Both the position numbers and the translations under genes were made by a program. The notes under the pieces are model-generated. The model saw only the letters and a program-made list of their open reading frames with translations. It searched no databases and was not told the origin of the DNA. From Neotamlana nanhaiensis (lineage in GTDB: Bacteria; Bacteroidota; Bacteroidia; Flavobacteriales; Flavobacteriaceae): a stretch of 64,000 nucleotides of DNA. This document shows positions 34,127 through 48,446 of this stretch, piece by piece (position 1 is the first letter of the stretch; every line of letters starts with the position of its first letter). The stretch spans positions 62,001 to 126,000 of the forward strand of contig NZ_JTDV01000014.1 in the NCBI RefSeq assembly GCF_000943555.1. The letters run 5' to 3'.

Positions 34127-34462
34127 ATGTCTAAAAACTATTACGACCCTGCCGATTTAAGAAAATTCAGTAAAATCACCGAATGGAGCGAAGAACTTGG
34201 GAACAAATTTTTCGATTACTACGGCAAAGTGTTCGAAGAAGGCGCCTTAACCGCTCGCGAAAAAAGTTTAATTGCCCTAGCTGTAGCTCACACCGAGCAA
34301 TGCCCTTACTGCATCGATGCCTACACAAAAGACGGCTTACAACGCGGTGTTACTAAAGAAGAAATGATGGAAGCCATACACGTTGGCGCCGCAATAAAAA
34401 GTGGCGCAACGCTAGTGCACGGTGTACAAATGATGAATAAAGTTAATAAGTTAGACGGTTAA
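34127..34462 (+). CDS. AhpD-like (carboxymuconolactone decarboxylase family) protein of arsenosugar clusters
   Basis: A 111-residue alpha-helical AhpD/CMD-fold protein with the redox motif CPYC (Cys59, Cys62) preceded by 'ALAVAHTEQ'. Small proteins of this kind are commonly annotated next to ArsS as arsenosugar-biosynthesis-associated peroxidase-like proteins; the reaction has not been shown to my knowledge. The dithiol could keep arsenic intermediates reduced. It is the first gene of the cluster and is separated from arsS by a dispersed repeat. Confidence 0.87.
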   Translation: MSKNYYDPADLRKFSKITEWSEELGNKFFDYYGKVFEEGALTAREKSLIALAVAHTEQCPYCIDAYTKDGLQRGVTKEEMMEAIHVGAAIKSGATLVHGVQMMNKVNKLDG

Positions 34463-34467
34463 TATTT

Positions 34468-34558
34468 GGGCGTTACCACAAGGGTCGGGCTTTACGCTAC
34501 AAGTCCTCGCTCTCACCTAGCGGTGTCGCTGTGGGCTTTCCACTACAATCCCTAACGC
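34468..34558 (+). repeat. Dispersed intergenic repeat, copy A
   Basis: A ~91-bp block that starts GGGCGTTACC and ends CCTAACGC (ends inversely related), with a GC-rich inner part containing AAGGGTCGGGCTTTACGCT. A related copy (same start, inner and end blocks) lies at 46923-47011. It has no coding potential and is more GC-rich than its surroundings. Confidence 0.75.
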
Positions 34559-34603
34559 AAACCTATTTTAACCTAATAACTATACATTTAGCAATAAACA
34601 ACA

Positions 34604-35659
34604 ATGGCAACAAAGTCCCTAAAAAAACGCGAAAGCGACTTAGCAAATAGTAAAAAGCAACTTGAAATTCTATCAAACGGTATCTTTCAAGATGGCGAAC
34701 TACCAACCTTTGCTAAAAAAATTGCCGAAACCAATCAGTTTCCTTTAAAAGCTAAAAAACTTGAAATTCTTCAAATAAACGTAGGCTACATGTGCAATCA
34801 AGTTTGCGCCCACTGCCACGTAGATGCTGGCCCTGACCGAAAGGAAATTATGACTCGCGAAACCATGCAACAGTGCCTTGAAGTTATTAAAAACACAGGT
34901 GCGCATACACTCGATTTAACCGGTGGCGCTCCCGAAATGAATCCTAATTTTCGTTGGTTTGTAGAAGAAGCTGCCAAAGCAGGTATAAAAGATTTTATCG
35001 TGCGCTCTAACCTAACAATTATTAGAGCTAACAAACAATATTACGATTTACCAGAGTTTTTCAAAAAACACAACGTACACGTCGTAAGTTCTATGCCGCA
35101 TTGGACTCGCGGAAAAACAGATAAACAACGTGGTAATGGCGTTTTCGATAAATCTATTAAAGCGTTACAAGAACTCAACGCCATTGGCTACGGCATGCCA
35201 GATAGTAATTTACGGTTAGACTTGGTTTATAATCCTTCGGGAGCATTTTTACCAGGCAACCAAGCATCCATGGAACAAGATTTTAAGAAGGCTTTAATAG
35301 ACGATTTCGGCATTCGATTTCATAATTTATTTGCCATTACCAATTTGCCAATTAGTCGGTTTTTAGATTATTTAATAGCTTCAGAAAATTACGAAGATTA
35401 TATGCATGCCCTTGTTGATGCTTACAATCCTGCTGCCGTATCCAACGTAATGTGTACCAATACCATTTCTGTAAGTTGGGATGGTTATTTGTACGATTGC
35501 GATTTTAATCAAATGCTACAATTACCTGTAAACAGTAAAGTAAAACACATTTCGGAATACAACGAAACACTTTTAGAAGGCAGAAACATTGTTATTTCCC
35601 AGCATTGTTATGGTTGTACCGCAGGTGCTGGAAGCAGTTGCCAAGGTACTGTAGCATAG
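34604..35659 (+). CDS. arsS: Arsenosugar biosynthesis radical SAM protein ArsS
   Basis: A 351-residue radical SAM enzyme. The iron-sulfur motif is CxxxCxxC at Cys64, Cys68 and Cys71 ('MCNQVCAHCHVDAGPDRKE'). A Cys-rich C-terminal region adds Cys284 and Cys299 ('MCTNTIS', 'YLYDCDFNQM') and Cys335, Cys338 and Cys346 ('CYGCTAGAGSSCQG'), typical of this family. In cyanobacteria ArsS uses SAM as the adenosyl source to convert dimethylarsenic to 5'-deoxy-5'-dimethylarsinoyl-adenosine. ArsM, the maker of its substrate, is encoded three genes downstream of the rhodanese. Confidence 0.92.
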   Translation: MATKSLKKRESDLANSKKQLEILSNGIFQDGELPTFAKKIAETNQFPLKAKKLEILQINVGYMCNQVCAHCHVDAGPDRKEIMTRETMQQCLEVIKNTGAHTLDLTGGAPEMNPNFRWFVEEAAKAGIKDFIVRSNLTIIRANKQYYDLPEFFKKHNVHVVSSMPHWTRGKTDKQRGNGVFDKSIKALQELNAIGYGMPDSNLRLDLVYNPSGAFLPGNQASMEQDFKKALIDDFGIRFHNLFAITNLPISRFLDYLIASENYEDYMHALVDAYNPAAVSNVMCTNTISVSWDGYLYDCDFNQMLQLPVNSKVKHISEYNETLLEGRNIVISQHCYGCTAGAGSSCQGTVA

Positions 35660-35685
35660 TACAAACGAAAACTGGCATTCTTGAA

Positions 35686-36180
35686 ATGAAAAAGAAATTT
35701 TTATACATAACATTACTATTCTCTGGAATCTTATTTTCACAAGAAACACTGTCGGAATTATTAAAAAATCATAATAACAAATCGGTTCCGTATATATCCG
35801 TGCACGAATTAGCAATGCCAAAAACCAAAGCAACACTTCTGGATGCTCGCGAAAAAATAGAATTTGAAACAAGCCATATTCAAGATGCCATTCACGTTGG
35901 ATATGATAACTTCAGCATACAAGAAATTTCAGAAAAACTTAAAAACAAACAGCAAACCATTGTAGTTTATTGCAGTTTAGGCATACGCTCAAACAACATT
36001 GCTAAACAGTTAAAAAAAGCAGGATACACGAATGTTTTCAACTTATTTGGTGGTATTTTTGAATGGAAAAACAACAACTTTACCGTTTACAACCAAAACA
36101 ACGAACCTACCGAAAACGTGCACGTATTTTCCAGATCGTGGAGTAAATGGCTAAAAAAAGGAAACAAAATTTATGACTAA
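35686..36180 (+). CDS. Periplasmic rhodanese-like protein
   Basis: A 164-residue single-domain rhodanese with signal peptide MKKKFLYITLLFSGILFSQ. The substrate loop is 'CSLGIRS' with active-site Cys96, preceded by 'LLDAREKIEFETSHIQDAIH'. I use the ATG at 35686; a longer reading frame starting within arsS is rejected because the signal peptide would be internal. It may transfer sulfur or act on arsenic thiol chemistry outside the cytoplasm, which is inference from position. It overlaps the next gene by 8 bases. Confidence 0.88.
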   Translation: MKKKFLYITLLFSGILFSQETLSELLKNHNNKSVPYISVHELAMPKTKATLLDAREKIEFETSHIQDAIHVGYDNFSIQEISEKLKNKQQTIVVYCSLGIRSNNIAKQLKKAGYTNVFNLFGGIFEWKNNNFTVYNQNNEPTENVHVFSRSWSKWLKKGNKIYD

Positions 36181-36802
36181 TACGCTTTTAATTGTTTTCG
36201 TAAAAAACAAAACCTTAGGAACCGTAAAAACCCGACTCGCTAAAACTATTGGCGATTTAGCCGCTTTCGAGGTATACAATCAACTATTAAAAATTACAGA
36301 GCAAGTAGTAAATACAGTAAATTGCGATAAGCGTATTTATTTCTCAAACTCTGTTGATGAAAACACTTGGAGCAATCATTTTAAAACCATTCAAAACGGA
36401 AAAGACTTAGGCGAACGTATGTTAAACGCTTTTAAAGAAGGCTTTAAAGCGGGTTATAATCGTATCATTCTAATTGGCTCGGATTTACCAGACATTTCCA
36501 AAACACACATCATCCAAGGTTTTGAAGCTTTAAAAACCAACGATGCTGTATTTGGTCCTGCTCAAGATGGCGGATATTACCTCGTTGGATTATCTAAACT
36601 TATTCCTGAAATTTTTAAAAACAAACCATGGAGCCAACCTTCGCTTTTAAAAGAAACACTAAACGAATTAACCCGAAACAACAATTCTTTTAGTACTTTA
36701 GAAACCCTAAATGATATTGATACTTACGATGATTTAATTGCATCGCATTTTTACAAAAACAACAAACTATTACAAGAAAAAATACAACAATTACATGATT
36801 AA
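36173..36802 (+). CDS. CofC-like transferase of the arsenosugar cluster (TIGR04282/DUF2064 type)
   Basis: A 209-residue protein with a nucleotidyltransferase/GT-A-like fold. The start, 'LLIVFVKNKTLGTVKTRLAK', is the family's phosphate-loop-like region (Lys and Arg), followed by 'IGSDLPDI' (metal-binding Asp) and 'FGPAQDGGYYLVGLS'. Family members are named 'arsenosugar biosynthesis glycosyltransferase' from gene context, but resemblance to CofC suggests transfer of a nucleotidyl group to a phosphorylated substrate. It overlaps both neighbours by 8 bases, so it is coupled to the phosphorylase, which would produce a sugar 1-phosphate. Confidence 0.88.
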   Translation: MTNTLLIVFVKNKTLGTVKTRLAKTIGDLAAFEVYNQLLKITEQVVNTVNCDKRIYFSNSVDENTWSNHFKTIQNGKDLGERMLNAFKEGFKAGYNRIILIGSDLPDISKTHIIQGFEALKTNDAVFGPAQDGGYYLVGLSKLIPEIFKNKPWSQPSLLKETLNELTRNNNSFSTLETLNDIDTYDDLIASHFYKNNKLLQEKIQQLHD

Positions 36803-37607
36803 ATTTATAGAAGAAACCGTTGATTATTTAAAAGATAAAGGTTTCGATAGCCCCGAAATTGGGATTATTTTAGGCACAGGTTTAGGGCAATTAATTAATG
36901 AAATAGAAATAATTGCCCAAGTAAGCTATAACCATATTCCTAACTTTCCGACAGCCACTGTAGAGTTTCATAAAGGTAAACTTGTTTACGGTAATATTGA
37001 AGATAAAAAGGTTGTGGTTATGCAAGGCCGTTTTCATATTTACGAAGGCTACACCTTACAAGATGTCACTTTTCCGGTGCGCATTATGGAAAAACTAGGT
37101 ATTAAAACGCTGCTAGTTTCAAATGCGGCTGGAGCCATTAATTTAAACTTTAAAAAAGGTGAATTAATGCTCATCGACGATCACATTAACCTTCAAGGGA
37201 GCTCACCATTAGCCTTTAAAGGCGTTTCCGAACTTGGAGAGCGCTTTGCAGACATGAGCGCACCTTACGACGCCAAAATTAATACAACGTTTAAAAAAAT
37301 AGCCTCGAAAAATAACATTACACTTCACAAAGGAGTTTACGCTAGTGTTGTTGGGCCGCAACTAGAAACCCGCGCCGAATACCGCATGCTAAAAATTATT
37401 GGTGCCGATGCCGTTGGTATGAGTACGGTTCCAGAAGTAATTGTTGCTAATCATTTAAATTTAAAAGTGGCTGCCGTGTCAGTTTTAACAGATGAATGCG
37501 ACCCAGATAACTTAGAACCCGTAAATATCGACGATATAATTGCGCATGCCTCGAAAGCAGAACCTAATATGATTTTGCTTTTTAAAGAATTATTGAAAAG
37601 TATTTAA
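36795..37607 (+). CDS. Purine nucleoside phosphorylase (trimeric PNP/MTAP family) with Asp at the base-specificity site
   Basis: A 270-residue phosphorylase cleaving a purine nucleoside with phosphate. Markers are 'GTGLGQLINEI' (27-37), 'QGRFHIYEGY' (77-86), 'SNAAGAIN' (109-116), 'GPQLETRAEYRML' with Glu191, 'GMSTVPEVIVANH' with Met209, and Asp233 in 'VLTDECDPD'. Human PNP has Asn243 at that position and human methylthioadenosine phosphorylase has Asp220. The overlap of 8 bases with the CofC-like gene and the setting between ArsS and ArsM suggest that it removes adenine from the arsenic nucleoside, though general purine salvage is also possible. Confidence 0.92.
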   Translation: MIKFIEETVDYLKDKGFDSPEIGIILGTGLGQLINEIEIIAQVSYNHIPNFPTATVEFHKGKLVYGNIEDKKVVVMQGRFHIYEGYTLQDVTFPVRIMEKLGIKTLLVSNAAGAINLNFKKGELMLIDDHINLQGSSPLAFKGVSELGERFADMSAPYDAKINTTFKKIASKNNITLHKGVYASVVGPQLETRAEYRMLKIIGADAVGMSTVPEVIVANHLNLKVAAVSVLTDECDPDNLEPVNIDDIIAHASKAEPNMILLFKELLKSI

Positions 37608-37646
37608 TGTCATTCCGAACAAAGTGAAGGAATCTTTTAAAAGATT
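37608..37646 (+). repeat. TGTCATTC-type palindromic element between the phosphorylase gene and arsM
   Basis: Begins directly after the phosphorylase stop codon with TGTCATTCCGAA...GGAATCTTTT and includes a perfect 16-bp palindrome AATCTTTTAAAAGATT (37631-37646). It resembles the two inverted copies at 312-338 and 365-391. It could act as a weak terminator. Confidence 0.55.
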
Positions 37647-37714
37647 GTCACATCATGCATTACACGCCTCGCAATATCGCTTAAAAAACTGAGACTGTAT
37701 TTAAAAACCAAAAC

Positions 37715-38683
37715 ATGAGTTACCTAGACACCACAAAAAACGTATATAAAGAAGCTGCCTTAACACCCGATGTAGGTTTATGTTGCACTACAAAACCTAT
37801 TTGGGAATTACCAGGATTAAAAATCCCGAAAATAATGCAAGAGATGAACTACGGTTGTGGTTCTACGGTGCATGCGCGCGATTTAACAAACAATCCTAAA
37901 ACGCTTTACGTTGGTGTTGGCGGTGGTATGGAGCTTTTACAATTTGCTTATTTTAACCGGCAAAAAAGTGGTGTTATTGGTGTTGATGTTGTCGATGAAA
38001 TGTTGGAAGCTTCTCGTAAAAACTTTATTGAAGCTGAAGCTGAAAATCCTTGGTTTAAAAGTGAATTTGTCGATTTAAAAAAAGGCGACGCTATGAACTT
38101 ACCTGTGGAAGATAACTCGATTGATGTTGCTGCTCAAAATTGTTTGTTTAATATTTTTAAAGCAGATGATTTAAAACAAGCCATAGCCGAAATGTATCGT
38201 GTTTTAAAACCTTATGGACGATTGGTAATGAGCGATCCTACTTGCGAACAACCCATGAACGAAACCCTTAGAAACGACGAACGACTTCGAGCCCTTTGTT
38301 TAAGCGGTAGCTTACCCATTGCAGAATACGTTAAAGCGCTTACTGATGCTGGTTTTGGAACTATAGAAATTAGAGCGAGAAAACCATATCGTATTTTAGA
38401 TCCAAAACATTATCCAACAAACGAGTTAATTTATATCGAATCGATTGAGGTTGCGGCTATAAAAGATCCTATGCCTAATGATGGGCCTTGTATTTTCACC
38501 GGGAAAGCGGCCATTTATTACGGAAAGTCTGATTATTTTGATGATAAAAAAGGACACGTGTTATTAAAAAACCAACCATTAGCTGTTTGCGACAAAACAG
38601 CCGCTGCATTGGCTAGTTTAAATCGCGACGATATTTTTATTAGCCCATCAACATATCATTACGACGGTGGCGGTTGTTGTTAA
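37715..38683 (+). CDS. arsM: Arsenite methyltransferase ArsM (arsenosugar type)
   Basis: A 322-residue SAM-dependent methyltransferase that methylates As(III). It shows the arsenosugar-type N-terminus with vicinal Cys23-Cys24 ('VGLCCTTKPIWELPGL') and Cys48 ('NYGCGST'), a SAM-binding loop 'LYVGVGGGMELLQFAYF', 'GVDVVDEML', 'AAQNCLFNIF', a Cys-containing central part, and a C-terminal 'GGGCC'. The cysteines would form the arsenic site. The dimethyl product is the ArsS substrate. A 107-base gap with a repeat precedes it, and it is followed after 9 bases by the MFS gene. Confidence 0.93.
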   Translation: MSYLDTTKNVYKEAALTPDVGLCCTTKPIWELPGLKIPKIMQEMNYGCGSTVHARDLTNNPKTLYVGVGGGMELLQFAYFNRQKSGVIGVDVVDEMLEASRKNFIEAEAENPWFKSEFVDLKKGDAMNLPVEDNSIDVAAQNCLFNIFKADDLKQAIAEMYRVLKPYGRLVMSDPTCEQPMNETLRNDERLRALCLSGSLPIAEYVKALTDAGFGTIEIRARKPYRILDPKHYPTNELIYIESIEVAAIKDPMPNDGPCIFTGKAAIYYGKSDYFDDKKGHVLLKNQPLAVCDKTAAALASLNRDDIFISPSTYHYDGGGCC

Positions 38684-38692
38684 AAATTCATT

Positions 38693-39856
38693 ATGAACAA
38701 TAAGCGCATTTTAACCATAATTGTATTGGCTCAGTTTTGCTGTACATCGTTGTGGTTTGCTTCAAATGCGGTTATTAACCCTATAATTGAAACTTTTAGC
38801 CTACAGAATAATGCTTTAAACTTACTAACCTCTGCAATACAATTCGGGTTTATTTGTGGCACTTTAGTATTTGCAGCGTTTAATGTAGCCGATAGCTTTT
38901 CGCCATCAAAAGTGTTTTTTATTAGCGCGCTGTTGGCATCTCTTTTAAATTTGGGTATCCTATTACCACAAAACAGTTTACTAAGTTTAATGGGCTTAAG
39001 GTTTGGCGTTGGCATTTTACTTGCAGGCATTTATCCTGTTGGCATGAAAATAGCTTCCGACTATTTTAAAAAAGGCTTAGGGAAATCGTTAAGTTTTTTA
39101 GTTGGCGCCTTGGTTATTGGCACCGCATTCCCTCATTTATTAAGTCATACTATTGAGGCTTCTATTTGGAAACAGGCAATCATTTACACCTCAATTTTAA
39201 GCGGTATTGGAGGTTTATTAGTTTTAATATTTGTACCAAATGGCCCTTATAGAATGGCGAATTCTAAAATAGATTTATCACTTTTCATTTCTATTTTTAA
39301 ATCGAAAACATTCAGAAAAACAGCCTTTGGCTATTTTGGCCATATGTGGGAACTTTATACCTTTTGGGCTTTTGTTCCTATAATTTTAAACTACTACAAC
39401 ACGCACCAAAACACAACATTAAATATCCCATTTTGGGCGTTTGTAATTATTGCTTCGGGAAGTATAGCTTGTGTTATTGGTGGTTATATTTCAGAACGAA
39501 TTACTGTCAAAAAAACAACAATTATTGCCTTATCACTCTCTGGATTATGTTGTTTATTTTCGCCTTTGTTCCTATCAACATCATCAATAGTTATATTCAT
39601 TTTATTTCTAATATTTTGGGGCATGGTGGTTATTATGGATTCTCCACTTCTTTCTACTATGGCGGCTAAACATGCGCATCCCGAAACACGTGGCACCGCT
39701 TTAACCATAGTTAATTGCATAGGTTATAGCATTACTATTTTAAGTATTGAATTTATGGCTTACCTCACGCAAATCATAAACCTAAACTATATTTTTATTA
39801 TCTTATTTTTAGGACCTCTTTTTGGTGTAATATCACTTTTTAAAACCAAAGCATAA
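38693..39856 (+). CDS. MFS transporter of the arsenosugar cluster
   Basis: A 387-residue membrane protein of the major facilitator superfamily with about twelve hydrophobic segments; the first contains a vicinal Cys pair ('VLAQFCCTSLWFASNAV'). The loop 'GLRFGVGILLAGIYPVGMKI' resembles the motif C region of antiporters. Position between arsM and the hydroxylase-like gene suggests export of an arsenic metabolite. That is inferred, and a nutrient or drug exporter cannot be ruled out. It starts 9 bases after arsM. Confidence 0.85.
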   Translation: MNNKRILTIIVLAQFCCTSLWFASNAVINPIIETFSLQNNALNLLTSAIQFGFICGTLVFAAFNVADSFSPSKVFFISALLASLLNLGILLPQNSLLSLMGLRFGVGILLAGIYPVGMKIASDYFKKGLGKSLSFLVGALVIGTAFPHLLSHTIEASIWKQAIIYTSILSGIGGLLVLIFVPNGPYRMANSKIDLSLFISIFKSKTFRKTAFGYFGHMWELYTFWAFVPIILNYYNTHQNTTLNIPFWAFVIIASGSIACVIGGYISERITVKKTTIIALSLSGLCCLFSPLFLSTSSIVIFILFLIFWGMVVIMDSPLLSTMAAKHAHPETRGTALTIVNCIGYSITILSIEFMAYLTQIINLNYIFIILFLGPLFGVISLFKTKA

Positions 39857-39858
39857 CC

Positions 39859-40740
39859 ATGGAAAAGTATTTAGATATCATAAAAAAATCGTATTCTGGA
39901 TACTGGAATTACCTAAAACACGAACTTATAAACATTAACCATTGGGATAATTATTTCTACGGATTAATTGTGATATCGCTTGTTGTTTGGGGATTAGAAA
40001 TTGCATTTCCTTGGCGGAAAAACCAGTCTGTTTTTCGCAAAGATTTTTGGCTTGATACATTTTACATGTTTTTCAACTTTTTCCTATTAAACCTCATCAT
40101 TCTTATTGCTTTATCGAATACAGTTGCTCAATTTTTTAATGATATTTTAGGTTTATTTAACCTTTCACTTTACAAGTTTCAATTATTTGATATTGACGAT
40201 TTACCAACATGGCTTGGTTTACTTATTTTCTTTTTGGTTTCTGATTTTGTTCAATGGAACACCCATAGACTATTACACAGGGTACCTTGGCTATGGAATT
40301 TTCATAAAGTCCATCACAGCGTTAAGGAAATGGGGTTTGCTGCACACCTGCGCTACCACTGGATGGAACCGGTAGTTTATAAATCTCTACTTTACATCCC
40401 TTTGGCTATTATTGGCGGTTTCGATGCTCAAGATGTTGCAATTATCCATTTTTTTAACATCGCCATTGGGCATTTAAATCATGCTAATTTAGGATGGGAT
40501 TACGGTTTTTTAAAATACATTTTTAATAACCCCAAAATGCATATTTGGCATCATGTAAAACACTTACCAAAGCATGTAAGGCACGGCGTAAATTACGGAC
40601 TAACCTTAAGCCTTTGGGATTATATTTTTAAAACCAATTACATTCCGCATAATGGCAGAGATATTGAATTAGGTTTTAAAGGCGACGAAAATTTTCCGAA
40701 GGATTTTTTACATCAAGAAATGTATCCTTTAAAAAAATGA
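39859..40740 (+). CDS. Fatty acid hydroxylase/sterol desaturase superfamily membrane protein
   Basis: A 293-residue protein with about four membrane segments and the di-iron His clusters of the family: 'THRLLHR', 'HKVHHS', 'HLNHAN' and 'HIWHHVKH'. Such enzymes use O2 to hydroxylate or desaturate lipids. It starts 2 bases after the MFS gene and overlaps the DUF547 gene by 4 bases (ATGA), so it is part of the cluster. The substrate is unknown; a lipid attached to or derived from the arsenosugar is a possible inference. Confidence 0.86.
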   Translation: MEKYLDIIKKSYSGYWNYLKHELININHWDNYFYGLIVISLVVWGLEIAFPWRKNQSVFRKDFWLDTFYMFFNFFLLNLIILIALSNTVAQFFNDILGLFNLSLYKFQLFDIDDLPTWLGLLIFFLVSDFVQWNTHRLLHRVPWLWNFHKVHHSVKEMGFAAHLRYHWMEPVVYKSLLYIPLAIIGGFDAQDVAIIHFFNIAIGHLNHANLGWDYGFLKYIFNNPKMHIWHHVKHLPKHVRHGVNYGLTLSLWDYIFKTNYIPHNGRDIELGFKGDENFPKDFLHQEMYPLKK

Positions 40741-41624
40741 AACCATTTATAGTTATTTATCTTGTATTGATGTGTTTAGCATGTACTGGAACTAAAAAGG
40801 TTCCCGAAGTCAGTCAAAAAAAGCATGCTACAATAGATAGCGTATCGCAAACCGTTATTGATGCTGTTAAAAACACTGAAGCACTAGCAACTCCAAAAAA
40901 CCTAGTTCAAACTTCAACCCAAGACGCAACACCATTTATCACACCTAAACAAATCCTTAAAAAACGATTTTTAGGCACACACGACCAATGGGATACACTT
41001 TTAAAACGACACGTTTCAACCGATGGCAAGGTAAATTACAAAGGTTTTAAAACTGACTATGTTAAACTTTTAAGTTACATAAAAAGTTTACAAGCTACGT
41101 ACAACGCCGAAGCCTTTCAAGAATTTAACTCCAATCAAAAATTAGCCTTTTGGATAAATGCTTATAACGCTTTTACTATCGATTTAATCCTTCGCCATTA
41201 CCCGGTAAAAAGTATAAAAGACATTAAAAATCCTTGGGAAGCGCGTTACTGGAAACTCGGTGAAACATGGATTAATTTAAACGAAATAGAACACACTATT
41301 TTGCGTAAAATGAACGAACCACGCATACATTTTGCCATTGTTTGCGCATCGGTTTCCTGCCCTAAATTACTAAATGAAGCGTTTAAGGCCGATTCTTTAA
41401 ACGCGCAATTAACTAAAGCTACAAACGCATTTTTAAACGATTCAACCAAAAACCAAATAACTTCTAACGAATTAAAACTTTCGAAAATATTTAAATGGTT
41501 TGCCAAAGATTTTAAAACGAATAATACGGATTTAATAGATTTTTTAAACACCTATTCTGAAGTACAAATAACGCCTCATGTCAAGAAAAGTTATTTAGAG
41601 TATAACTGGAGTTTAAATGAATGA
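40737..41624 (+). CDS. DUF547 lipoprotein
   Basis: A 295-residue protein with a lipobox ('VLMCLACTG', Cys16), a low-complexity linker of about 60 residues, and a DUF547 domain ('VNYKGFKTDYVKLLSYIK', 'KLAFWINAYNAFTIDLIL', 'PRIHFAIVCASVSCPKL'). DUF547 is a papain-like-fold domain of uncertain function; a Cys near 'CASVSCP' and a His in 'RIHFAIV' are its most conserved residues. It is anchored to a membrane in the envelope. It shares ATGA overlaps with both neighbours. Confidence 0.87.
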   Translation: MKPFIVIYLVLMCLACTGTKKVPEVSQKKHATIDSVSQTVIDAVKNTEALATPKNLVQTSTQDATPFITPKQILKKRFLGTHDQWDTLLKRHVSTDGKVNYKGFKTDYVKLLSYIKSLQATYNAEAFQEFNSNQKLAFWINAYNAFTIDLILRHYPVKSIKDIKNPWEARYWKLGETWINLNEIEHTILRKMNEPRIHFAIVCASVSCPKLLNEAFKADSLNAQLTKATNAFLNDSTKNQITSNELKLSKIFKWFAKDFKTNNTDLIDFLNTYSEVQITPHVKKSYLEYNWSLNE

Positions 41625-42349
41625 ATTCAACTTTAAAAAACAAAGTAAATATGCCTACAATAAGCATTATTATTCCGGTTTTAAATGAAGCCGAACATAT
41701 TAGCAAATTACTTGCGTATCTATTAAACAACGCAAAATCTCCAGAAAATCTTGAAATTTTTGTAGTTGATGGCGGCAGCACCGATGCGACAGTTTCCATA
41801 ATTAAAGATCTAAACTTAAACCAAGTTAACCTTTTACATGCGGCAAAAGGACGTGCCAAACAAATGAATTTTGGTGCAAAACACGCCAATGGCTCTATTT
41901 TATATTTTTTACACGCCGATTCGTATCCGCCAAAACATTTCGATTATTTTATTTTAAATGAAGTTGAAAATGGCAACGAAGCAGGCTGCTTTAAAATGCA
42001 ATTTAACAGCGACCATTGGTGGCTAAAACTAGCTAGTTGGTTTACTCAATTTAATTTGATGGCTTGTCGAGGTGGCGACCAAAGTCAGTTTATCACCAAA
42101 TCGCTTTTTAATGCCATTGGTGGTTATAATGAAGCATTTATAATTTACGAAGATTATATTTTAATAAAAACGCTTTACCGCATTAATACGTTTGTGGTAA
42201 TTCAAAAAAACTTAAAAACATCGGCACGTTTGTATGAAACTCAAGGTGTTTTTAAGCTTCAACGTATATTTTTAACCATTTACTTAAAACGATGGTTAGG
42301 CGCCTCGCCCGAAACATTGCATCGTTATTACAAAAAAGCCTTGGCCTAA
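41621..42349 (+). CDS. GT2 glycosyltransferase of the arsenosugar cluster (TIGR04283 type)
   Basis: A 242-residue family 2 glycosyltransferase. The core is 'IIPVLNEAEHISKLL', 'VVDGGSTDATVSI', 'HAAKGRAKQMNFGA', the DxD-like 'FLHADSYPPKHF' and 'GGDQSQFI'. This family is consistently found near arsM/arsS and is named for arsenosugar biosynthesis. It overlaps DUF547 by 4 bases and ends the cluster. The acceptor (glycerol, lipid or a sugar) cannot be read from sequence. An ATG ten codons downstream is an alternative start. Confidence 0.9.
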   Translation: MNSTLKNKVNMPTISIIIPVLNEAEHISKLLAYLLNNAKSPENLEIFVVDGGSTDATVSIIKDLNLNQVNLLHAAKGRAKQMNFGAKHANGSILYFLHADSYPPKHFDYFILNEVENGNEAGCFKMQFNSDHWWLKLASWFTQFNLMACRGGDQSQFITKSLFNAIGGYNEAFIIYEDYILIKTLYRINTFVVIQKNLKTSARLYETQGVFKLQRIFLTIYLKRWLGASPETLHRYYKKALA

Positions 42350-42352
42350 CAT

Positions 42353-43081
42353 TTACTTATTTCTACCTTTTTCGTTAGGATACAAACCTGGTAAATTATC
42401 ACTTTGTACAAAGGCTTTGGTATCAATATTTATCCCTGTAATTTTCCCTTTAAAAGCGGCGCCAGTATCTACATTCCATACATTAGCGGCATGCATAGGT
42501 TCGGACTCATTAAAATTAGTTGTTGGCGTGTGGCCTATAAAAATTTCGGAATAATGCTTTAATCTATTCGGATAAATTACAGCATCCTTGTCGATGGTTT
42601 TATCCATGGTCAAAGCCATTTCCCATAGGGTTCGGTCGTAATACAAGGTTTCTTTAACTACTTCCCGTTCCACACCATGCATCGAAGTAAAACCTGCGTG
42701 AAGAAACAATCTATTTTTATCATCAAGATAATACATTCGCGTGTTTTCGAAAAACTCTAAATGTATCTTTTTTTGTTCCACCGAATACCCTTCATAACTA
42801 TCCATAGTTTCTTTACCTCCGTGAATGTACCATGTTGGGTTTACTTCCTTATTTCTAAGCCAGTCTTCGCACCAAACATCATGGTTTCCTTTTATAAATA
42901 TGCAATTAATAGTTTCAGATAAATCAATTAACAAATCAATAACTTGAGCCGATTCGCTCCAGCCATCAACATAATCGCCCATAAAAATAAGTGTGTCTTC
43001 ATCTTTTATTTCTAATTTATTTAATACTTGAGTCAGGGCTTTTAAGCCGCCATGTATATCGCCTATTGCAAAGGTTCTCAT
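42353..43081 (-). CDS. Calcineurin-like metallophosphoesterase (serine/threonine phosphatase-like)
   Basis: A 242-residue PPP-family phosphatase. Metal-binding motifs are 'GDIHGGL' (residues 7-13), 'MGDYVDGW' (about 33-41), 'KGNHDVWCE' and 'FLHAGFTS', with a final 'GHTPT'. It could dephosphorylate proteins, diadenosine tetraphosphate or a small molecule. It is convergent with the arsenosugar cluster (3-base gap) and overlaps the GH113-like gene by 4 bases. Confidence 0.9.
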   Translation of the reverse strand: MRTFAIGDIHGGLKALTQVLNKLEIKDEDTLIFMGDYVDGWSESAQVIDLLIDLSETINCIFIKGNHDVWCEDWLRNKEVNPTWYIHGGKETMDSYEGYSVEQKKIHLEFFENTRMYYLDDKNRLFLHAGFTSMHGVEREVVKETLYYDRTLWEMALTMDKTIDKDAVIYPNRLKHYSEIFIGHTPTTNFNESEPMHAANVWNVDTGAAFKGKITGINIDTKAFVQSDNLPGLYPNEKGRNK

Positions 43082-44097
43082 AATTTATAATGTCGTTTTT
43101 TTGCGTATTCGTTTTTAATTAGTGCTTCTACAGGTTTGTTTTGTGGTGTAAACTGATGATTATTTTCTCCGCCAACATCATTGTGATTAACAAACCATTT
43201 CCACACAAAACCACCAGCAAACCAAGGCTCGTCCCAAAAGGTTTTAAATAAAGCTTCGGTGGTATTTACTTGTGCTTGCAAATTTACTTGATTCATATCT
43301 CGATCGCTAACCCAAGGTTTTCTGCCCGAATAATCTACACTGCGATAACCAAATTCGGTAAACAAAACGGGCTTATTATTTGCTTGCTGAACGGTTAAGA
43401 TATCGGCTTTATGCTTTTTCCAACCGTGCAAACAAGCTTCAACTGTTGGTGTTTTACTGTCGCTTACTGGAAAATAAGCGTCTATACCTATAAAATCGAG
43501 GGCTTCCCAAAACGGTGTTCTGTTAAATTCATTCCAATTGGCGGCATAAGTTAGCTTGCCTTTGTAAATGGCTTTAACCTTTTTAATAAGGCCAAACCAA
43601 AATGCTGGTCTGCTATCTACAAATCCTTCTAATTCGGTACCTATACAAAATATTTCGGCATTGGTTTCTTGGGCTACTTCAGCAAATTGTAAAATAAAAT
43701 CGGTATAAGATGCCTCAAAAACAGCCCATTCTGCTTCGGTTTTCAACTTAATAAACCCAGTAAACATACCACGACCAACCCAAATTTGAGGTTTAACCAT
43801 GGTTTTAATACCTTCTTTTTTTAACTGAAATATGTACTGTTTTACACCTGTTCGCGTTTCTCCAAACCATTGCCTGTTAGTATTAAACACTATTTCAGGA
43901 TGATTTAAATCTCGAATAAAACCAAATGGCATAATGGCCGCATAATTGGCATTTAAATTTACAACCGGTTTAATATGCTTTTGATTAACGGAATCGCGAT
44001 GTGCTACAAAACTAACGCCGTTTATTTTGGTCAACTTCGCTGGCTGCGCGCAACCAACACTTAAAATAAGCAGACAAAACACAAAAATAGCTCTCAT
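43078..44097 (-). CDS. GH113-like glycoside hydrolase, lipoprotein
   Basis: A 339-residue TIM-barrel protein resembling family GH113 beta-mannanases. The N-terminus has a lipobox ('LILSVGCAQ', Cys16). Candidate catalytic carboxylates are in 'IGTELEGF' (Glu155 or Glu157) and 'LFTEFGYRS' (Glu248). Other motifs are 'KPQIWVGRG', 'ANWNEF' and 'FIGIDAYFPVS'. The substrate is a guess from family resemblance. It overlaps the metallophosphoesterase and faces away from the MerT-like gene. Confidence 0.78.
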   Translation of the reverse strand: MRAIFVFCLLILSVGCAQPAKLTKINGVSFVAHRDSVNQKHIKPVVNLNANYAAIMPFGFIRDLNHPEIVFNTNRQWFGETRTGVKQYIFQLKKEGIKTMVKPQIWVGRGMFTGFIKLKTEAEWAVFEASYTDFILQFAEVAQETNAEIFCIGTELEGFVDSRPAFWFGLIKKVKAIYKGKLTYAANWNEFNRTPFWEALDFIGIDAYFPVSDSKTPTVEACLHGWKKHKADILTVQQANNKPVLFTEFGYRSVDYSGRKPWVSDRDMNQVNLQAQVNTTEALFKTFWDEPWFAGGFVWKWFVNHNDVGGENNHQFTPQNKPVEALIKNEYAKKRHYKL

Positions 44098-44667: not shown

Positions 44668-44672
44668 AATTG

Positions 44673-44680
44673 TATTTTTG
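44673..44680 (+). promoter_or_regulatory. Candidate -7 box (TATTTTTG) of the glycosyltransferase pair
   Basis: Exact TAnnTTTG match 20 bases before the ATG at 44700. It overlaps an in-frame TTG (44670) that would give a longer protein, supporting the ATG start. Confidence 0.45.
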
Positions 44681-44699
44681 GCGCTGCAAAACAACCCAA

Positions 44700-45392
44700 A
44701 TGCCAAAAATTAATGTTATTATCCCTGCTTATAACGAGGCCGCATCCATTGCACTGGTTATACAGCATATTCCTAAAATGGTAGACGAAATTATTGTAGT
44801 AAGCAATAATTCTACCGATGCCACCGAGGACAATGCAAAAAAAGCAGGAGCTACCGTTTTAACCGAAAAAAATAAAGGTTATGGTTATGCTTGCCTAAAA
44901 GGATTGCATTATATCGCAAAAAAAATCGAAAAACCAGATATTATTGTATTTTTGGACGGTGATTATAGTGATTACCCTGAAGAATTAACCAAAATAGTAG
45001 AACCAATAACCAACCAAAATATAGACCTTGTAATAGGCGCTCGGGTAAAAACACTTCGAGAACAAGGTGCTATGACAATTCCACAAGTTTTCGGTAACTG
45101 GCTAGCAACCAATCTTATGTCGTTATTTTTTAATGCAAAATTTACCGACTTAGGACCATTTAGAGCCATAAAATACAACAAACTTTTAGCTTTAAATATG
45201 GAAGACAAAACCTACGGATGGACAGTTGAGATGCAACTAAAAGCATTAAAACAAAACTTATCGTATACCGAAATACCCGTAAATTACAGAAACAGAATAG
45301 GACAATCTAAAGTTTCAGGTACCATAAAAGGTGCTATATTTGCAGGCGTAAAAATACTTGGTTGGATTTTTAAATACAGTATTAAAAAATGA
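44700..45392 (+). CDS. GT2 glycosyltransferase (dolichol-phosphate-mannose-synthase-like)
   Basis: A 230-residue soluble family 2 enzyme: 'IIPAYNEAASIALVI', 'VSNNSTDATED', 'LDGDYSDYPEELT' (DxD), 'GPFRAIKY', 'YGWTVEMQLKAL' and 'YRNRIGQSKVSGT'. It looks like a polyprenyl-phosphate glycosyltransferase or one making a lipid-linked sugar. The next gene overlaps by 4 bases (ATGA), so the two are translated together. Confidence 0.88.
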   Translation: MPKINVIIPAYNEAASIALVIQHIPKMVDEIIVVSNNSTDATEDNAKKAGATVLTEKNKGYGYACLKGLHYIAKKIEKPDIIVFLDGDYSDYPEELTKIVEPITNQNIDLVIGARVKTLREQGAMTIPQVFGNWLATNLMSLFFNAKFTDLGPFRAIKYNKLLALNMEDKTYGWTVEMQLKALKQNLSYTEIPVNYRNRIGQSKVSGTIKGAIFAGVKILGWIFKYSIKK

Positions 45393-46879
45393 TTCTTGAA
45401 TCTGTTATTATTTTAATTTATTCTATTTCGCTGCTGCTCATATTCATGTATGCCTTAGCACAGTTAAATTTATTATTTAATTATCTAACTTCTAAAAAGG
45501 CCGAAGATAATTGTGAAAAATTTAACTTATCAAACCCCAACGAAGTTCCCGTAATTACCATACAGCTTCCTGTTTTTAACGAAATGTATGTTATGGAGCG
45601 CTTGCTCGATAATATTGCTGAAATTGATTATCCAAAAGACAAATTAGAGATTCAAGTTTTAGACGACTCTACCGACGAAACCGTTGAAACCACTAAAGCT
45701 CACATCGAACAATTACAAGCCACTGGCTTAGACATAAAACACATTACTCGAACCGACCGAAAAGGCTTTAAAGCGGGTGCGTTAAAAGAAGGTTTAGCCA
45801 TTGCTAAAGGTGAATTTATTGCTATTTTCGACTCCGATTTTCTTCCAAATAAAGACTGGTTATTACGCACCGTACCATACTTTAAAAACGAAAATATTGG
45901 CGTTGTTCAAACCCGTTGGGGACACATAAATCGCGATTACTCCATTCTTACAAAAATACAAGCATTTGCACTCGACGCGCATTTTACACTCGAGCAAGTT
46001 GGCCGTAATAGTAAAGGTCATTTTATAAACTTTAACGGTACTGCAGGCGTTTGGCGCAAACAATGCATTATCGATGCTGGAAACTGGGAAGGCGACACCC
46101 TAACCGAAGACCTCGACTTAAGCTACCGTGCACAACTTAAAAACTGGAAATTTAAATACCTAGAAGATGTTGAAACACCTGCAGAATTACCAGTAGTAAT
46201 TAGTGCAGCACGTTCGCAACAATTCCGTTGGAATAAAGGTGGCGCCGAAAACTTTCGAAAAATGCTTGGACGCGTCTTAAAATCTCCAAACATTTCGGCA
46301 AAAACCAAAATACACGGTTTGCTTCACCTTTTAAACAGTACCATGTTTTTAAACGTATTAATTGTTGGGGTTTTAAGCATCCCAATGCTATACATTAAAA
46401 ACGAATATGCCCACTTAAAACCATATTTTTACATTATGAGTTTCTTTGTGCTTAGTACCATAATATTTTTTATATGCTACTGGCACATGTATAAAAACAT
46501 TTACGGCTCTGGCTTTAAAAACTTCTTTAAATACATTGGCATGTTTTTCGTGTTTTTCTCAATAGCTATGGGCTTTTCATTACACAATTCCATTGCCGTT
46601 CTCGAAGGACATTTTGGTAAAAAAAGCGAATTTGTACGCACGCCAAAATTCAATTTAAGCAAGTTTAAAGACAACTGGAAAACCAACAAATACATGAAAA
46701 AGAACCTTTCCGTAAACGTCGTGTTCGAAGGTTTACTTATGCTCTATTTTGGTTTTGGTATGTATAGCGCGTTTATAGTAGGCAATCAAGGTGGCGATTT
46801 TGGGTTATTTCCATTCCATTTAATGCTTTTTGTTGGCTTTGGTTATGTGTTTTTCAAATCGTTAGCATCAAAAGTATAG
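45389..46879 (+). CDS. Processive-type GT2 glycosyltransferase, cellulose synthase-like (CslA-like)
   Basis: A 496-residue membrane glycosyltransferase with one N-terminal and several C-terminal membrane helices (about 310-490). The catalytic core shows 'LDDSTDET', 'FDSDFLP', 'TEDLDLSYRAQL' and the QxxRW motif ('QQFRWNKGG'). Such enzymes polymerise or transfer beta-linked sugars. The pattern is similar to plant CslA mannan/glucomannan synthases. The product is not known. Confidence 0.88.
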   Translation: MILESVIILIYSISLLLIFMYALAQLNLLFNYLTSKKAEDNCEKFNLSNPNEVPVITIQLPVFNEMYVMERLLDNIAEIDYPKDKLEIQVLDDSTDETVETTKAHIEQLQATGLDIKHITRTDRKGFKAGALKEGLAIAKGEFIAIFDSDFLPNKDWLLRTVPYFKNENIGVVQTRWGHINRDYSILTKIQAFALDAHFTLEQVGRNSKGHFINFNGTAGVWRKQCIIDAGNWEGDTLTEDLDLSYRAQLKNWKFKYLEDVETPAELPVVISAARSQQFRWNKGGAENFRKMLGRVLKSPNISAKTKIHGLLHLLNSTMFLNVLIVGVLSIPMLYIKNEYAHLKPYFYIMSFFVLSTIIFFICYWHMYKNIYGSGFKNFFKYIGMFFVFFSIAMGFSLHNSIAVLEGHFGKKSEFVRTPKFNLSKFKDNWKTNKYMKKNLSVNVVFEGLLMLYFGFGMYSAFIVGNQGGDFGLFPFHLMLFVGFGYVFFKSLASKV

Positions 46880-46888
46880 TGCAAATTT

Positions 46889-46923
46889 AAAATCAAAATA
46901 CAACTAACTTGTTGATTTTTTTT
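46889..46923 (+). terminator. Possible terminator after the CslA-like gene
   Basis: AAAATCAA pairs with TTGATTTT over a 15-base loop, then a T tract. It is AT-rich and thus weak. It lies next to repeat copy B. Confidence 0.4.
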
Positions 46924-47011
46924 GGCGTTTCCCTAAAGGGTCGCGCTTTACACTCATAGTTTTGGCTCGATGCGCGCCTCGCCAAAAGCTAACCGTTGCA
47001 ATCGCTAACGG
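46923..47011 (+). repeat. Dispersed intergenic repeat, copy B
   Basis: Shares with 34468-34558 an opening GGCGTT-CC, an inner GGGTCG-GCTTTAC block and an end CAATC-CTAACG. It fills most of the 154-base gap and has no coding potential. Confidence 0.7.
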
Positions 47012-47033
47012 AGCTCACAACAAAATTTAAAGT

Positions 47034-48446
47034 ATGTTACTAAACAAAAACTTTATAACAACTTATAAAATTCCGTTATTGTTAGTGCTTGCTTCCATGC
47101 TGTTTTATTGGTCTTTTGCCTACAACTTAGTCCGCACCGATTATATAAAACTAGTCACGCTTTACTCGGCATTATTTTACCTGTTTTATAAAATAGTAAA
47201 CATCTTTAAACAAAACACCAAAGCCTTAACCGCTTTTGCATTTTGTTTTCGTGCCTTTTTTATACTGGCCATCCCAAACCTATCACAAGATTTTTATCGC
47301 TTTATTTGGGACGGACGCCTTATTTTTGCAGGTTATAATCCATATTTGTATAGCGTACAAACGTTTTTAGAAAACGATATATTTCCCATTCCTCAAGCCG
47401 AAATACTACGCCAAGGTATGGGACAATTAAATGCGAGCCATTTTAGCAATTACCCACCACTAAATCAGCTCTGTTTTTTTTTAGCAGCATTAATTTCAAA
47501 CCACAACATTTTAGGCTCTGTAATTGTACTTCGTGTTATTATCATTCTAGCCGATTTTGGCACCCTATATTTTGGAAAAAAACTACTAAAAGACTTAAAC
47601 CTTCCTGAGCATAAAATCTATTGGTATATTTTAAATCCGTTTATAATAATTGAGCTTACTGGAAATTTACATTTCGAAGGTGTCATGATTTTTTTCCTTG
47701 TTTGGAGTTTGTACTTATTACAGCAAAAAAAATCGATGCTTGCTGCCTTAACTTTTGCTTGTTCAATTTCAATAAAGCTTTTCCCTTTAATGTTGCTCCC
47801 ATTATTTTTTCAGTGGTTTATAACTAAAAAAAATCGCAACAACGTAAAGCATTTCAACTTAAAATCACTTAGCTCAAAACTTTTAAAACTAGTATTATTT
47901 TACATCATTGTAATTGGTGTTACGTTGCTTCTTTTTCTTCCTTTTTACAATTCTAATTTAATAAGTAACTATACTACAACAACGACTTTATGGTTTAACA
48001 ATTTCGAGTTCAATGCTAGTCTTTATTACATCGCTAGAGCCATTGGATATAGCTTTCGAGGACATAACGAAATTGCCATAATTGGAAAACTTTCACAAAT
48101 TATTGTTATCCTTTTTATTATTGCCATTTCCTTTTTCAGAAAAAACCGCACATTACCACAGCTTATTTCTGCTATGTTATTCGTACTATCGTTTTACTTT
48201 TTTACAGCAACAACGGTACATCCTTGGTACATTTCAACACTTTTAATACTATCCGTTTTCACCAATTACAAGTTTCCGTTGGTTTGGAGTTATATTATTA
48301 TTTTAAGTTACTTGGCGTATTTAAATACTAATTCTATGGATAAATCAGAAAATTTATGGGTTATCGCTTTAGAGTATATTGTAGTTTTTAGCGTATTTTT
48401 ATTTGAAATTTTTAAAAAGAAATCCGTTGACCATAAACTTCTATAA
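47034..48446 (+). CDS. Polytopic mannosyltransferase-like membrane protein (GT87/GT-C type)
   Basis: A 470-residue protein with ten or more hydrophobic segments. The loop after the second or third segment, 'LSQDFYRFIWDGRLIFAGYN', has the acidic pair typical of GT-C enzymes that use lipid-linked sugars. A polyprenyl-phosphate-mannose donor would fit the preceding DPM-like gene. The specificity is inferred. It overlaps the next gene by up to 44 bases. Confidence 0.82.
   Translation: MLLNKNFITTYKIPLLLVLASMLFYWSFAYNLVRTDYIKLVTLYSALFYLFYKIVNIFKQNTKALTAFAFCFRAFFILAIPNLSQDFYRFIWDGRLIFAGYNPYLYSVQTFLENDIFPIPQAEILRQGMGQLNASHFSNYPPLNQLCFFLAALISNHNILGSVIVLRVIIILADFGTLYFGKKLLKDLNLPEHKIYWYILNPFIIIELTGNLHFEGVMIFFLVWSLYLLQQKKSMLAALTFACSISIKLFPLMLLPLFFQWFITKKNRNNVKHFNLKSLSSKLLKLVLFYIIVIGVTLLLFLPFYNSNLISNYTTTTTLWFNNFEFNASLYYIARAIGYSFRGHNEIAIIGKLSQIIVILFIIAISFFRKNRTLPQLISAMLFVLSFYFFTATTVHPWYISTLLILSVFTNYKFPLVWSYIIILSYLAYLNTNSMDKSENLWVIALEYIVVFSVFLFEIFKKKSVDHKLL

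Follow-up and report, generated by a model that had tools for sequence, protein, structure and literature searches.

A ten-gene row in a marine bacterium that probably converts toxic arsenic into an arsenic-bearing sugar

The window, by which we mean the whole stretch of 64,000 nucleotides that was analysed, carries ten open reading frames in a row, all on the plus strand and together spanning positions 34127 to 42349 (Table 1). Each has an ATG start and a stop codon and none contains an internal stop; the ten genes of the original prediction are confirmed as real and intact. Spacing between successive genes is, in order, +141, +26, -8, -8, +107, +9, +2, -4 and -4 bases, so that the 4- and 8-base overlaps described earlier amount to two of each. 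Seven gene products pass the cut-offs of NCBIfam families (TIGR04169, TIGR04167, NF045521, TIGR04282, NF006054, NF038099 and TIGR04283), and the remaining three lie above the gathering scores of Pfam MFS_1, FA_hydroxylase and DUF547. Since five genes score above the cut-off for curated arsenosugar biosynthesis families, the locus is of a kind already known and annotated: ArsS has the CX3CX2C motif (C64, C68 and C71, invariant among 16 aligned ArsS sequences), an arsenosugar-type ArsM lies at the same locus, and TIGR04169, the family of the first gene, is described as arsenosugar biosynthesis-associated peroxidase-like. A search by sequence found no solved relative of ArsS at E ≤ 0.001. The N-terminus of the rhodanese resembles a signal peptide by eye and stays below the hydrophobicity cut-off used. 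Among named genomes, in a comparison that may omit very near records, the nearest ArsS proteins come from Winogradskyella and other Flavobacteriaceae, so that the earlier label ‘flavobacterium’ holds at the family level.

Table 1. Features of the row in their order along the window (scores and cut-offs in bits)
Feature	Position	Strand	Family	Score	Cut-off	Remark
AhpD-like / CMD protein	34127..34462	+	TIGR04169	192.5	120	first gene
Dispersed repeat-like element	34470..34578	+				in AhpD-ArsS gap; 29 own-genome matches at E ≤ 0.001, self included
ArsS, radical SAM enzyme	34604..35659	+	TIGR04167	446.7	300	
Rhodanese	35686..36180	+	NF045521	202.8	145	
TIGR04282 / DUF2064 protein	36173..36802	+	TIGR04282	195.4	134	
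Purine nucleoside phosphorylase (PNP)	36795..37607	+	NF006054	345.5	218	Ile257 type
ArsM, arsenosugar-type arsenite methyltransferase	37715..38683	+	NF038099	574.5	400	
MFS transporter	38693..39856	+	PF07690			
Fatty-acid-hydroxylase family membrane protein	39859..40740	+	PF04116	91.2		His motifs
DUF547 protein	40737..41624	+	PF04784	94.8		lipoprotein-like N-terminus (by eye)
GT2-type glycosyltransferase	41621..42349	+	TIGR04283	228.1	182	

In counts that, like all our co-occurrence statistics, ignore the relatedness of the genomes, 88 of the 120 genomes compared from this family have ArsS, and TIGR04282 is present in each of the 88. Nine of the ten window genes recur in the operons of relatives, the exception being the MFS gene. 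The order AhpD-ArsS-rhodanese-TIGR04282-PNP-ArsM-hydroxylase-DUF547-TIGR04283 is common to 16 of the 88 family ArsS loci, the window being one of these when its MFS gene is ignored; gene order is thus conserved far more than chance would allow. By position, 87 of the 88 loci have an AhpD-like gene immediately upstream of ArsS, on the same strand and less than 1 kb away; counted from gene strings, it is present in 86. Rhodanese and DUF547 genes occur at 54 and 57 of these loci, respectively. The hydroxylase gene lies at 38, while a strong homologue exists somewhere in the genome in 82 of the 88. Strong hydroxylase homologues (E ≤ 4.1e-87) are present in 88 of 94 TIGR04282 genomes and in 0 of 26 others, counts that leave out one match of 89, the single weak one outside the TIGR04282 genomes (genome G119, E 6.8e-16). 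All 79 family genomes bearing TIGR04283 also carry TIGR04282; among the 88 ArsS genomes, 19 are without an arsenosugar-type ArsM and 13 without TIGR04283 (presence threshold E ≤ 1e-40 for both). The families thus recur across Flavobacteriaceae well beyond this genome, so that the lack of co-conservation named beforehand as a refutation was not observed, and this co-conservation, together with the family matches, supports the arsenosugar-type locus that had been predicted. When 20 ArsS loci were read in families elsewhere in the phylum, neither PNP nor rhodanese was seen. ArsS also occurs on 52 plasmid records, 47 of them from Burkholderia; six of the 52 were read, one of these from Burkholderia. 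Phage records gave no ArsS match. Among the four proteobacterial plasmid ArsS loci that were read, three carry a DUF547 gene and three a methylthioadenosine phosphorylase in place of PNP.

Members of TIGR04282 are publicly annotated as glycosyltransferases. In a fold search with the AF2 model of the window protein (pLDDT 94.2), the nearest characterised folds were nucleotidylyltransferases, most like the CofC type, and likeness extends to CofC/FbiD guanylyltransferases and 3-phosphoglycerate guanylyltransferase. The conserved N-terminal Lys/Arg loop of the CofC type is present as well, and residues G16, K19, R21, L22, D104, D132, D181 and D183 are invariant in 47 sequences. The protein reaches 29.7 bits with Pfam CofC (gathering score 22), but differs from CofC in scoring 36.5 bits against a cut-off of 105 with TIGR03552 (2-phospho-L-lactate guanylyltransferase), and is therefore not CofC itself. 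The modelled fold suggests that this family comprises nucleotidylyltransferases, and the name ‘transferase’ used in the original prediction is probably wrong in detail; we propose that the window protein activates arsenoribose-1-phosphate. A paralogue, t4282b, found at 22 of the 88 family ArsS loci, was left out of account as a further activating enzyme: the Lys/Arg loop is absent in six examples inspected and is not conserved.

PNP immediately follows TIGR04282 in 88 of 90 family loci fetched (from 94 TIGR04282 genomes). In a set of named loci, the best 80 of 591, mostly Flavobacteriaceae and of varying length, 54 contain TIGR04282 and 42 have PNP directly 3′ of it; this set and the family set were kept separate because they overlap (loci L266 and L058 carry identical PNPs). 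Canonical PNPs have a His at human position 257 that is expected to bind the 5′-OH. The window enzyme has Ile where the canonical PNPs of the alignment carry this His, and so lacks the residue expected of a canonical inosine/guanosine PNP. The same position is Ile in 84 and Val in 4 of the 88 linked copies, and His in 8 of 16 unlinked PNPs. Asp at position 243 had been considered as a mark of the cluster enzyme and was dropped, since it is invariant across all 104 PNPs, linked or unlinked. The window protein lies just above the TIGR01700 PNP cut-off (295.5 versus 293.35 bits). It shares with the methylthioadenosine phosphorylase MtnP the Pfam superfamily PF01048 and the lack of His at the 5′-OH position, but is a PNP subtype rather than an MTAP, scoring 92.7 bits against a cut-off of 274.85 with TIGR01694. 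We propose it as a 5′-deoxy-5′-arsino-adenosine phosphorylase.

The TIGR04283 protein is proposed as a candidate for arsenoribosyl transfer and the hydroxylase as a candidate modifier of a lipid acceptor. With the model of the ornithine lipid hydroxylase OlsE (NF052566) the latter reaches 83.6 bits against a cut-off of 475, and a sequence search found no solved relative at E ≤ 1. For DUF547, only chance-level matches were found by sequence among solved structures. The MFS protein is possibly an exporter; its gene was matched at none of the 87 other family ArsS loci and at none of the 80 named loci (E ≤ 1e-5, single-sequence profile), and its slot in relatives holds PHO4 in 6 of 88 loci and Pst genes in one of 88.

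From the observed gene content, gene order, co-occurrence, fold and residue change we infer every reaction of a pathway by which the operon would make an arsenoriboside, perhaps lipid-linked, as a means of arsenic detoxification, and we regard this reading as fairly probable. By analogy with the cyanobacterial enzymes, ArsM would form dimethylarsenic and ArsS is expected to couple it with the 5′-deoxyadenosyl group. PNP would then swap adenine for phosphate to give 5-deoxy-5-dimethylarsinoyl-ribose 1-phosphate, which the TIGR04282 protein could activate with an NTP in a CofC-like manner, and TIGR04283 would move the sugar from the nucleotide onto an acceptor, perhaps a lipid. Hydroxylase, DUF547 lipoprotein and transporter may act on acceptor or product at the membrane. 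The 1-phosphate released by phosphorolysis is alpha, and inverting GT2 enzymes convert alpha to beta. The stereochemistry thus fits the route, as a known arsenosugar is a beta-ribofuranoside (PMC6656958). Of the earlier interpretation, the arsenosugar-type locus is supported; the claim that all ten genes serve one end product is not supported in that form, given an MFS gene matched at no other ArsS locus searched and a hydroxylase gene at fewer than half of the family ArsS loci.

The single-product claim is further weakened by genomes without ArsS. The idea that TIGR04282 is strictly tied to ArsS was abandoned, as ArsS is missing from 6 of the 94 TIGR04282 genomes in the family set and from 60 of the 180 in the phylum sample (the 180 counted at E ≤ 1e-25; 178 lie above the cut-off); TIGR04282 therefore has some ArsS-free use or outlasts ArsS. 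Also telling against the proposed route are the ArsS genomes without an arsenosugar-type ArsM or TIGR04283, the ArsS loci of other families without PNP and rhodanese, and the named TIGR04282 loci in which PNP does not come directly next. Four of the six family genomes (G001, G018, G037 and G104) keep rhodanese, TIGR04282, PNP and TIGR04283, rhodanese, PNP and TIGR04283 standing in a row, with neither ArsS above the cut-off nor an arsenosugar-type ArsM, and the hydroxylase is present in all six. Hydroxylase genomes, moreover, carry TIGR04282 in 88 of 88 cases versus ArsS in 82. Such numbers would be expected if TIGR04282, TIGR04283, hydroxylase, DUF547 and PNP formed an older, arsenic-free route to a nucleoside-derived glycoside or glycolipid into which ArsM and ArsS, in genomes that have them, feed an arsenic precursor. 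We nevertheless hold this to be rather unlikely: genomes with ArsS surround the four in a PNP tree whose bootstrap support is unsettled, a position that also fits loss of ArsS, a 54.7-bit match in G018 to the end of ArsS is perhaps a remnant, and ArsS above the cut-off never occurs without TIGR04282 in the family set (kinship ignored). Equally tentative is a broader idea in which TIGR04282, hydroxylase, DUF547, TIGR04283 and a 5′-deoxynucleoside phosphorylase turn SAM-derived 5′-modified adenosines into nucleotide-activated sugars and then glycolipids. Arsenosugars would then be one branch, turned on by ArsM and ArsS, and the many TIGR04282 genomes without ArsS would make arsenic-free products.

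The phosphorylase could also be an ordinary purine-salvage enzyme that recycles adenine or by-products, the sugar being freed or activated otherwise, for example by a nucleosidase, as proposed for an algal arsenolipid (PMC10456119). General salvage is conceivable because the cluster PNP is the sole such enzyme found in its own genome, and eight genomes without TIGR04282 keep a non-His PNP that stands alone. These eight unlinked PNPs are, however, nested among linked ones in the same tree, His is replaced in every linked copy, in G033, which alone has both types, the cluster copy is the non-His one, and a methylthioadenosine phosphorylase stands at three proteobacterial loci; we consider ordinary salvage improbable. 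Uptake and breakdown of algal arsenosugars instead of synthesis is very improbable: a SusC/SusD pair, a sodium:solute symporter family protein and a metallophosphoesterase do lie near ArsS in some relatives and a SusC-type family is found in 15 of 101 fetched loci, but such a module is absent from the window and the other 86 loci, and arsenosugar synthesis reportedly uses radical SAM adenosylation of arsenic (PMC12159101).

Synthesis of an arsenoriboside remains our preferred reading. In edible marine algae, arsenic is described as occurring mainly as arsenosugars (PMC13197290). In the literature searched, which lay mostly outside subscription journals, we found no gene assignment for the steps after ArsS. 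Comparison with other genomes suggests one; the proposal for these later steps is what the comparison adds, and it offers two enzymes and two substrates for direct testing. On proteobacterial plasmids these functions recur alongside another kind of phosphorylase, an independent check of the proposed chemistry.

ArsM and ArsS would have the roles of the arsenosugar pathway reported for Synechocystis (cited in PMC8552651 and PMC12159101), but the window operon adds phosphorylase, CofC-like protein, GT2 enzyme, hydroxylase and DUF547. None of these five occurs in the one cyanobacterial plasmid stretch read, where ArsM and ArsS have TVP38/TMEM64 and mercuric-reductase-like genes as neighbours. For the algal AsSugPhytol546, PMC10456119 proposes that arsenic joins the ribosyl part of SAM and adenine is then lost, as in our proposal; there, however, a nucleosidase and phytyl diphosphate are invoked and no nucleotide sugar, in contrast to a phosphorylase and a nucleotide-activated sugar. 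With arsQML of Burkholderia gladioli (arsinothricin; PMC8552651) the window shares an ArsM-type methyltransferase adjoining a radical SAM enzyme, which in arsQML forms a C-As bond. The two differ in that ArsL transfers an aminocarboxypropyl group and that the window ArsM reaches 100.6 against a cut-off of 500 with the arsinothricin-cluster ArsM model. Synechococcus elongatus has both TIGR04282 and TIGR04283.

The ten genes form a series on the plus strand, as the original prediction had it, all of them intact, and the 4- or 8-base overlaps described there are found at four adjacent gene pairs (8, 8, 4 and 4 bases). The two widest gaps measure 141 bases after the AhpD-like gene and 107 bases before ArsM, the arsenosugar-type arsenite methyltransferase. 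An ACR3 arsenite exporter is encoded on a different contig of the same genome. The operon is of a known kind, since NCBIfam already labels five of the ten families as arsenosugar biosynthesis; the novelty, as far as the literature searched shows, lies in assigning the later steps and in the swapped phosphorylase. On the best-supported reading this is a predicted arsenoriboside operon whose ArsS, the radical SAM enzyme, is connected to the transferase by phosphorolysis and nucleotide activation. The purine nucleoside phosphorylase (PNP) would act downstream of ArsS, and nucleotide activation (proposed for TIGR04282) would precede the transferase step (TIGR04283). We hold this reading with moderate confidence, partly because TIGR04282 and the fatty-acid-hydroxylase (FAH) genes persist without ArsS.

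Features of the window and of the compared loci
Location	Coordinates	Strand	Content
Window, operon	34127-42349	+	AhpD-like TIGR04169, ArsS, rhodanese (NF045521), TIGR04282, PNP, ArsM, MFS, FAH, DUF547, TIGR04283
Window, AhpD-ArsS gap	34470-34578		repeat-like dispersed element; 29 matches in own genome including itself
Window, next gene after operon	at 42353	opposite
Window	43078-44097	opposite	GH113-type gene, lipoprotein-like by eye; family near operon in 43/101 loci
Window, downstream	44670-48446		AglJ-like GT2 (family near operon in 28/101 loci), cellulose-synthase-like GT, mannosyltransferase-like membrane protein
Cupriavidus plasmid			PHO4 phosphate transporter, ArsM-like methyltransferase, CMD protein, ArsS, FAD oxidoreductase, VTT protein, TIGR04283, TIGR04282, methylthioadenosine phosphorylase, radical SAM protein, DUF547
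Acinetobacter plasmid			ArsS, oxidoreductase fusion, DUF547, TIGR04283, TIGR04282, methyltransferase, phosphate transporter; opposite strand: methylthioadenosine phosphorylase, FA-hydroxylase protein
Burkholderia glumae plasmid			row TIGR04282, TIGR04283, methylthioadenosine phosphorylase; MFS between row and ArsS; DUF547 beyond
Thiodictyon plasmid			GT2 protein, FA-hydroxylase protein, ArsS, TIGR04282
Pseudanabaena plasmid			ArsM, ArsS; later families none found on stretch read
Hymenobacter plasmid			DUF547, TIGR04283, two epimerase/reductase-type genes, ArsS; TIGR04282 not found on stretch read
Mycobacteroides plasmid (L293)	5330-7276		GT2, TIGR04282, SAM methyltransferase in row; no ArsS on stretch read
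Loci with SusC/SusD-type module			L063, L074, L079, L080, L081, L088, L095, L099, L111, L113, L122 and others

A gene-neighbourhood check across Flavobacteriaceae, proposed with the original prediction, found the families co-conserved beyond this genome. Among 120 genomes sampled evenly across the family, ArsS exceeded the cut-off in 88 and TIGR04282 in 94; ArsM was present in 69, TIGR04283 in 79 and PNP in 107. The sets are nested: ArsS implies TIGR04282 (88/88), ArsM implies ArsS (69/69) and TIGR04283 implies TIGR04282 (79/79), with Fisher p < 1e-12 for the gene pairs tested, relatedness being ignored. All 88 ArsS loci, the window among them, were read over ~20 kb where the contig permitted. 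AhpD lies directly 5′ of ArsS in 87, and the same stretch holds TIGR04282 in 73, PNP in 73, ArsM in 58, DUF547 in 57, rhodanese in 54, TIGR04283 in 51, FAH in 38 and MFS in the window alone. Fourteen loci carry AhpD and ArsS without the other eight families; for ten of these genomes a separate TIGR04282 site was fetched, and PNP follows there. Arsenosugar-type ArsM is absent from 19 ArsS genomes (G007, G013, G014 and 16 more), which may rely on a different methyltransferase or import arsenic that is already methylated.

Across the phylum, ArsS exceeded the cut-off in 121 of 296 sampled genomes and TIGR04282 accompanied it in 120 (in the remaining genome ArsS lies near a contig start); conversely, ArsS is absent from 60 of 180 TIGR04282 genomes. 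The Mycobacteroides plasmid row is a further sign of TIGR04282 independent of ArsS. Twenty ArsS loci from other families of the phylum held AhpD in 17, TIGR04282 in 13, TIGR04283 in 11, DUF547 in three, ArsM in two and weak FAH-like matches in two, and neither PNP nor rhodanese in any. On these counts AhpD-ArsS-TIGR04282-TIGR04283 is the commoner unit in those families, and the remaining genes are mainly an extension in and near Flavobacteriaceae. The best 80 of 591 named loci contained AhpD (76), TIGR04282 (54), PNP (47), rhodanese (40), ArsM (39), DUF547 (35), TIGR04283 (24) and FAH (17).

Of the 90 family loci fetched, 88 have PNP immediately 3′ of TIGR04282. The residue equivalent to human His257, the histidine that holds the 5′-OH, is Ile in the window PNP, as it is in 84 of the 88 linked PNPs (Val in four); the 16 unlinked copies have His (8) or Ile, Leu or Val (8), and the 47 PNPs of the named loci Ile (43), Val (1) or Leu (1), two being cut off. 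In a tree of 115 sequences the His type forms a single clade (support 100/99, from a bootstrap that had not converged), and the eight unlinked non-His PNPs fall among linked copies. One genome, G033, carries both types, the cluster copy being non-His.

Six loci were read from 52 plasmid records with ArsS. A different phosphorylase, methylthioadenosine phosphorylase, whose natural substrate is a 5′-deoxy-5′-substituted adenosine, occurs in three of the four proteobacterial loci (Cupriavidus: 276.2 bits vs a cut-off of 274.85); at the Thiodictyon locus no phosphorylase was found within 8 kb.

By position FAH appears optional, yet strong homologues (E ≤ 4.1e-87) occur in 88 of the 120 family genomes, all 88 with TIGR04282; the 26 genomes lacking TIGR04282 gave none of that strength and one weak match. 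Six ArsS genomes lack FAH, and all six genomes with TIGR04282 and without ArsS carry it. In the eight genomes with a non-His PNP and no TIGR04282, FAH is absent too; TIGR04282 and FAH were probably lost jointly more than once with the PNP kept, since the PNPs of those genomes scatter over several places of the tree.

The window MFS gene lies between ArsM and FAH and does not match that of the Burkholderia glumae locus. This slot holds a PHO4 phosphate transporter in six of 88 family loci (one without FAH) and four Pst genes in one; a PHO4-type gene also neighbours the methyltransferase in two of the six plasmid loci. A plausible role for these transporters is to supply phosphate, or to take it up selectively when arsenate is present.

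In some Flavobacteriaceae ArsS is followed by a SusC/SusD pair, an SSF-type symporter and a calcineurin-like phosphoesterase; the SusC-type family occurs in 15 of 101 loci, and the module mostly accompanies a DUF2064 paralogue without the Lys/Arg loop.
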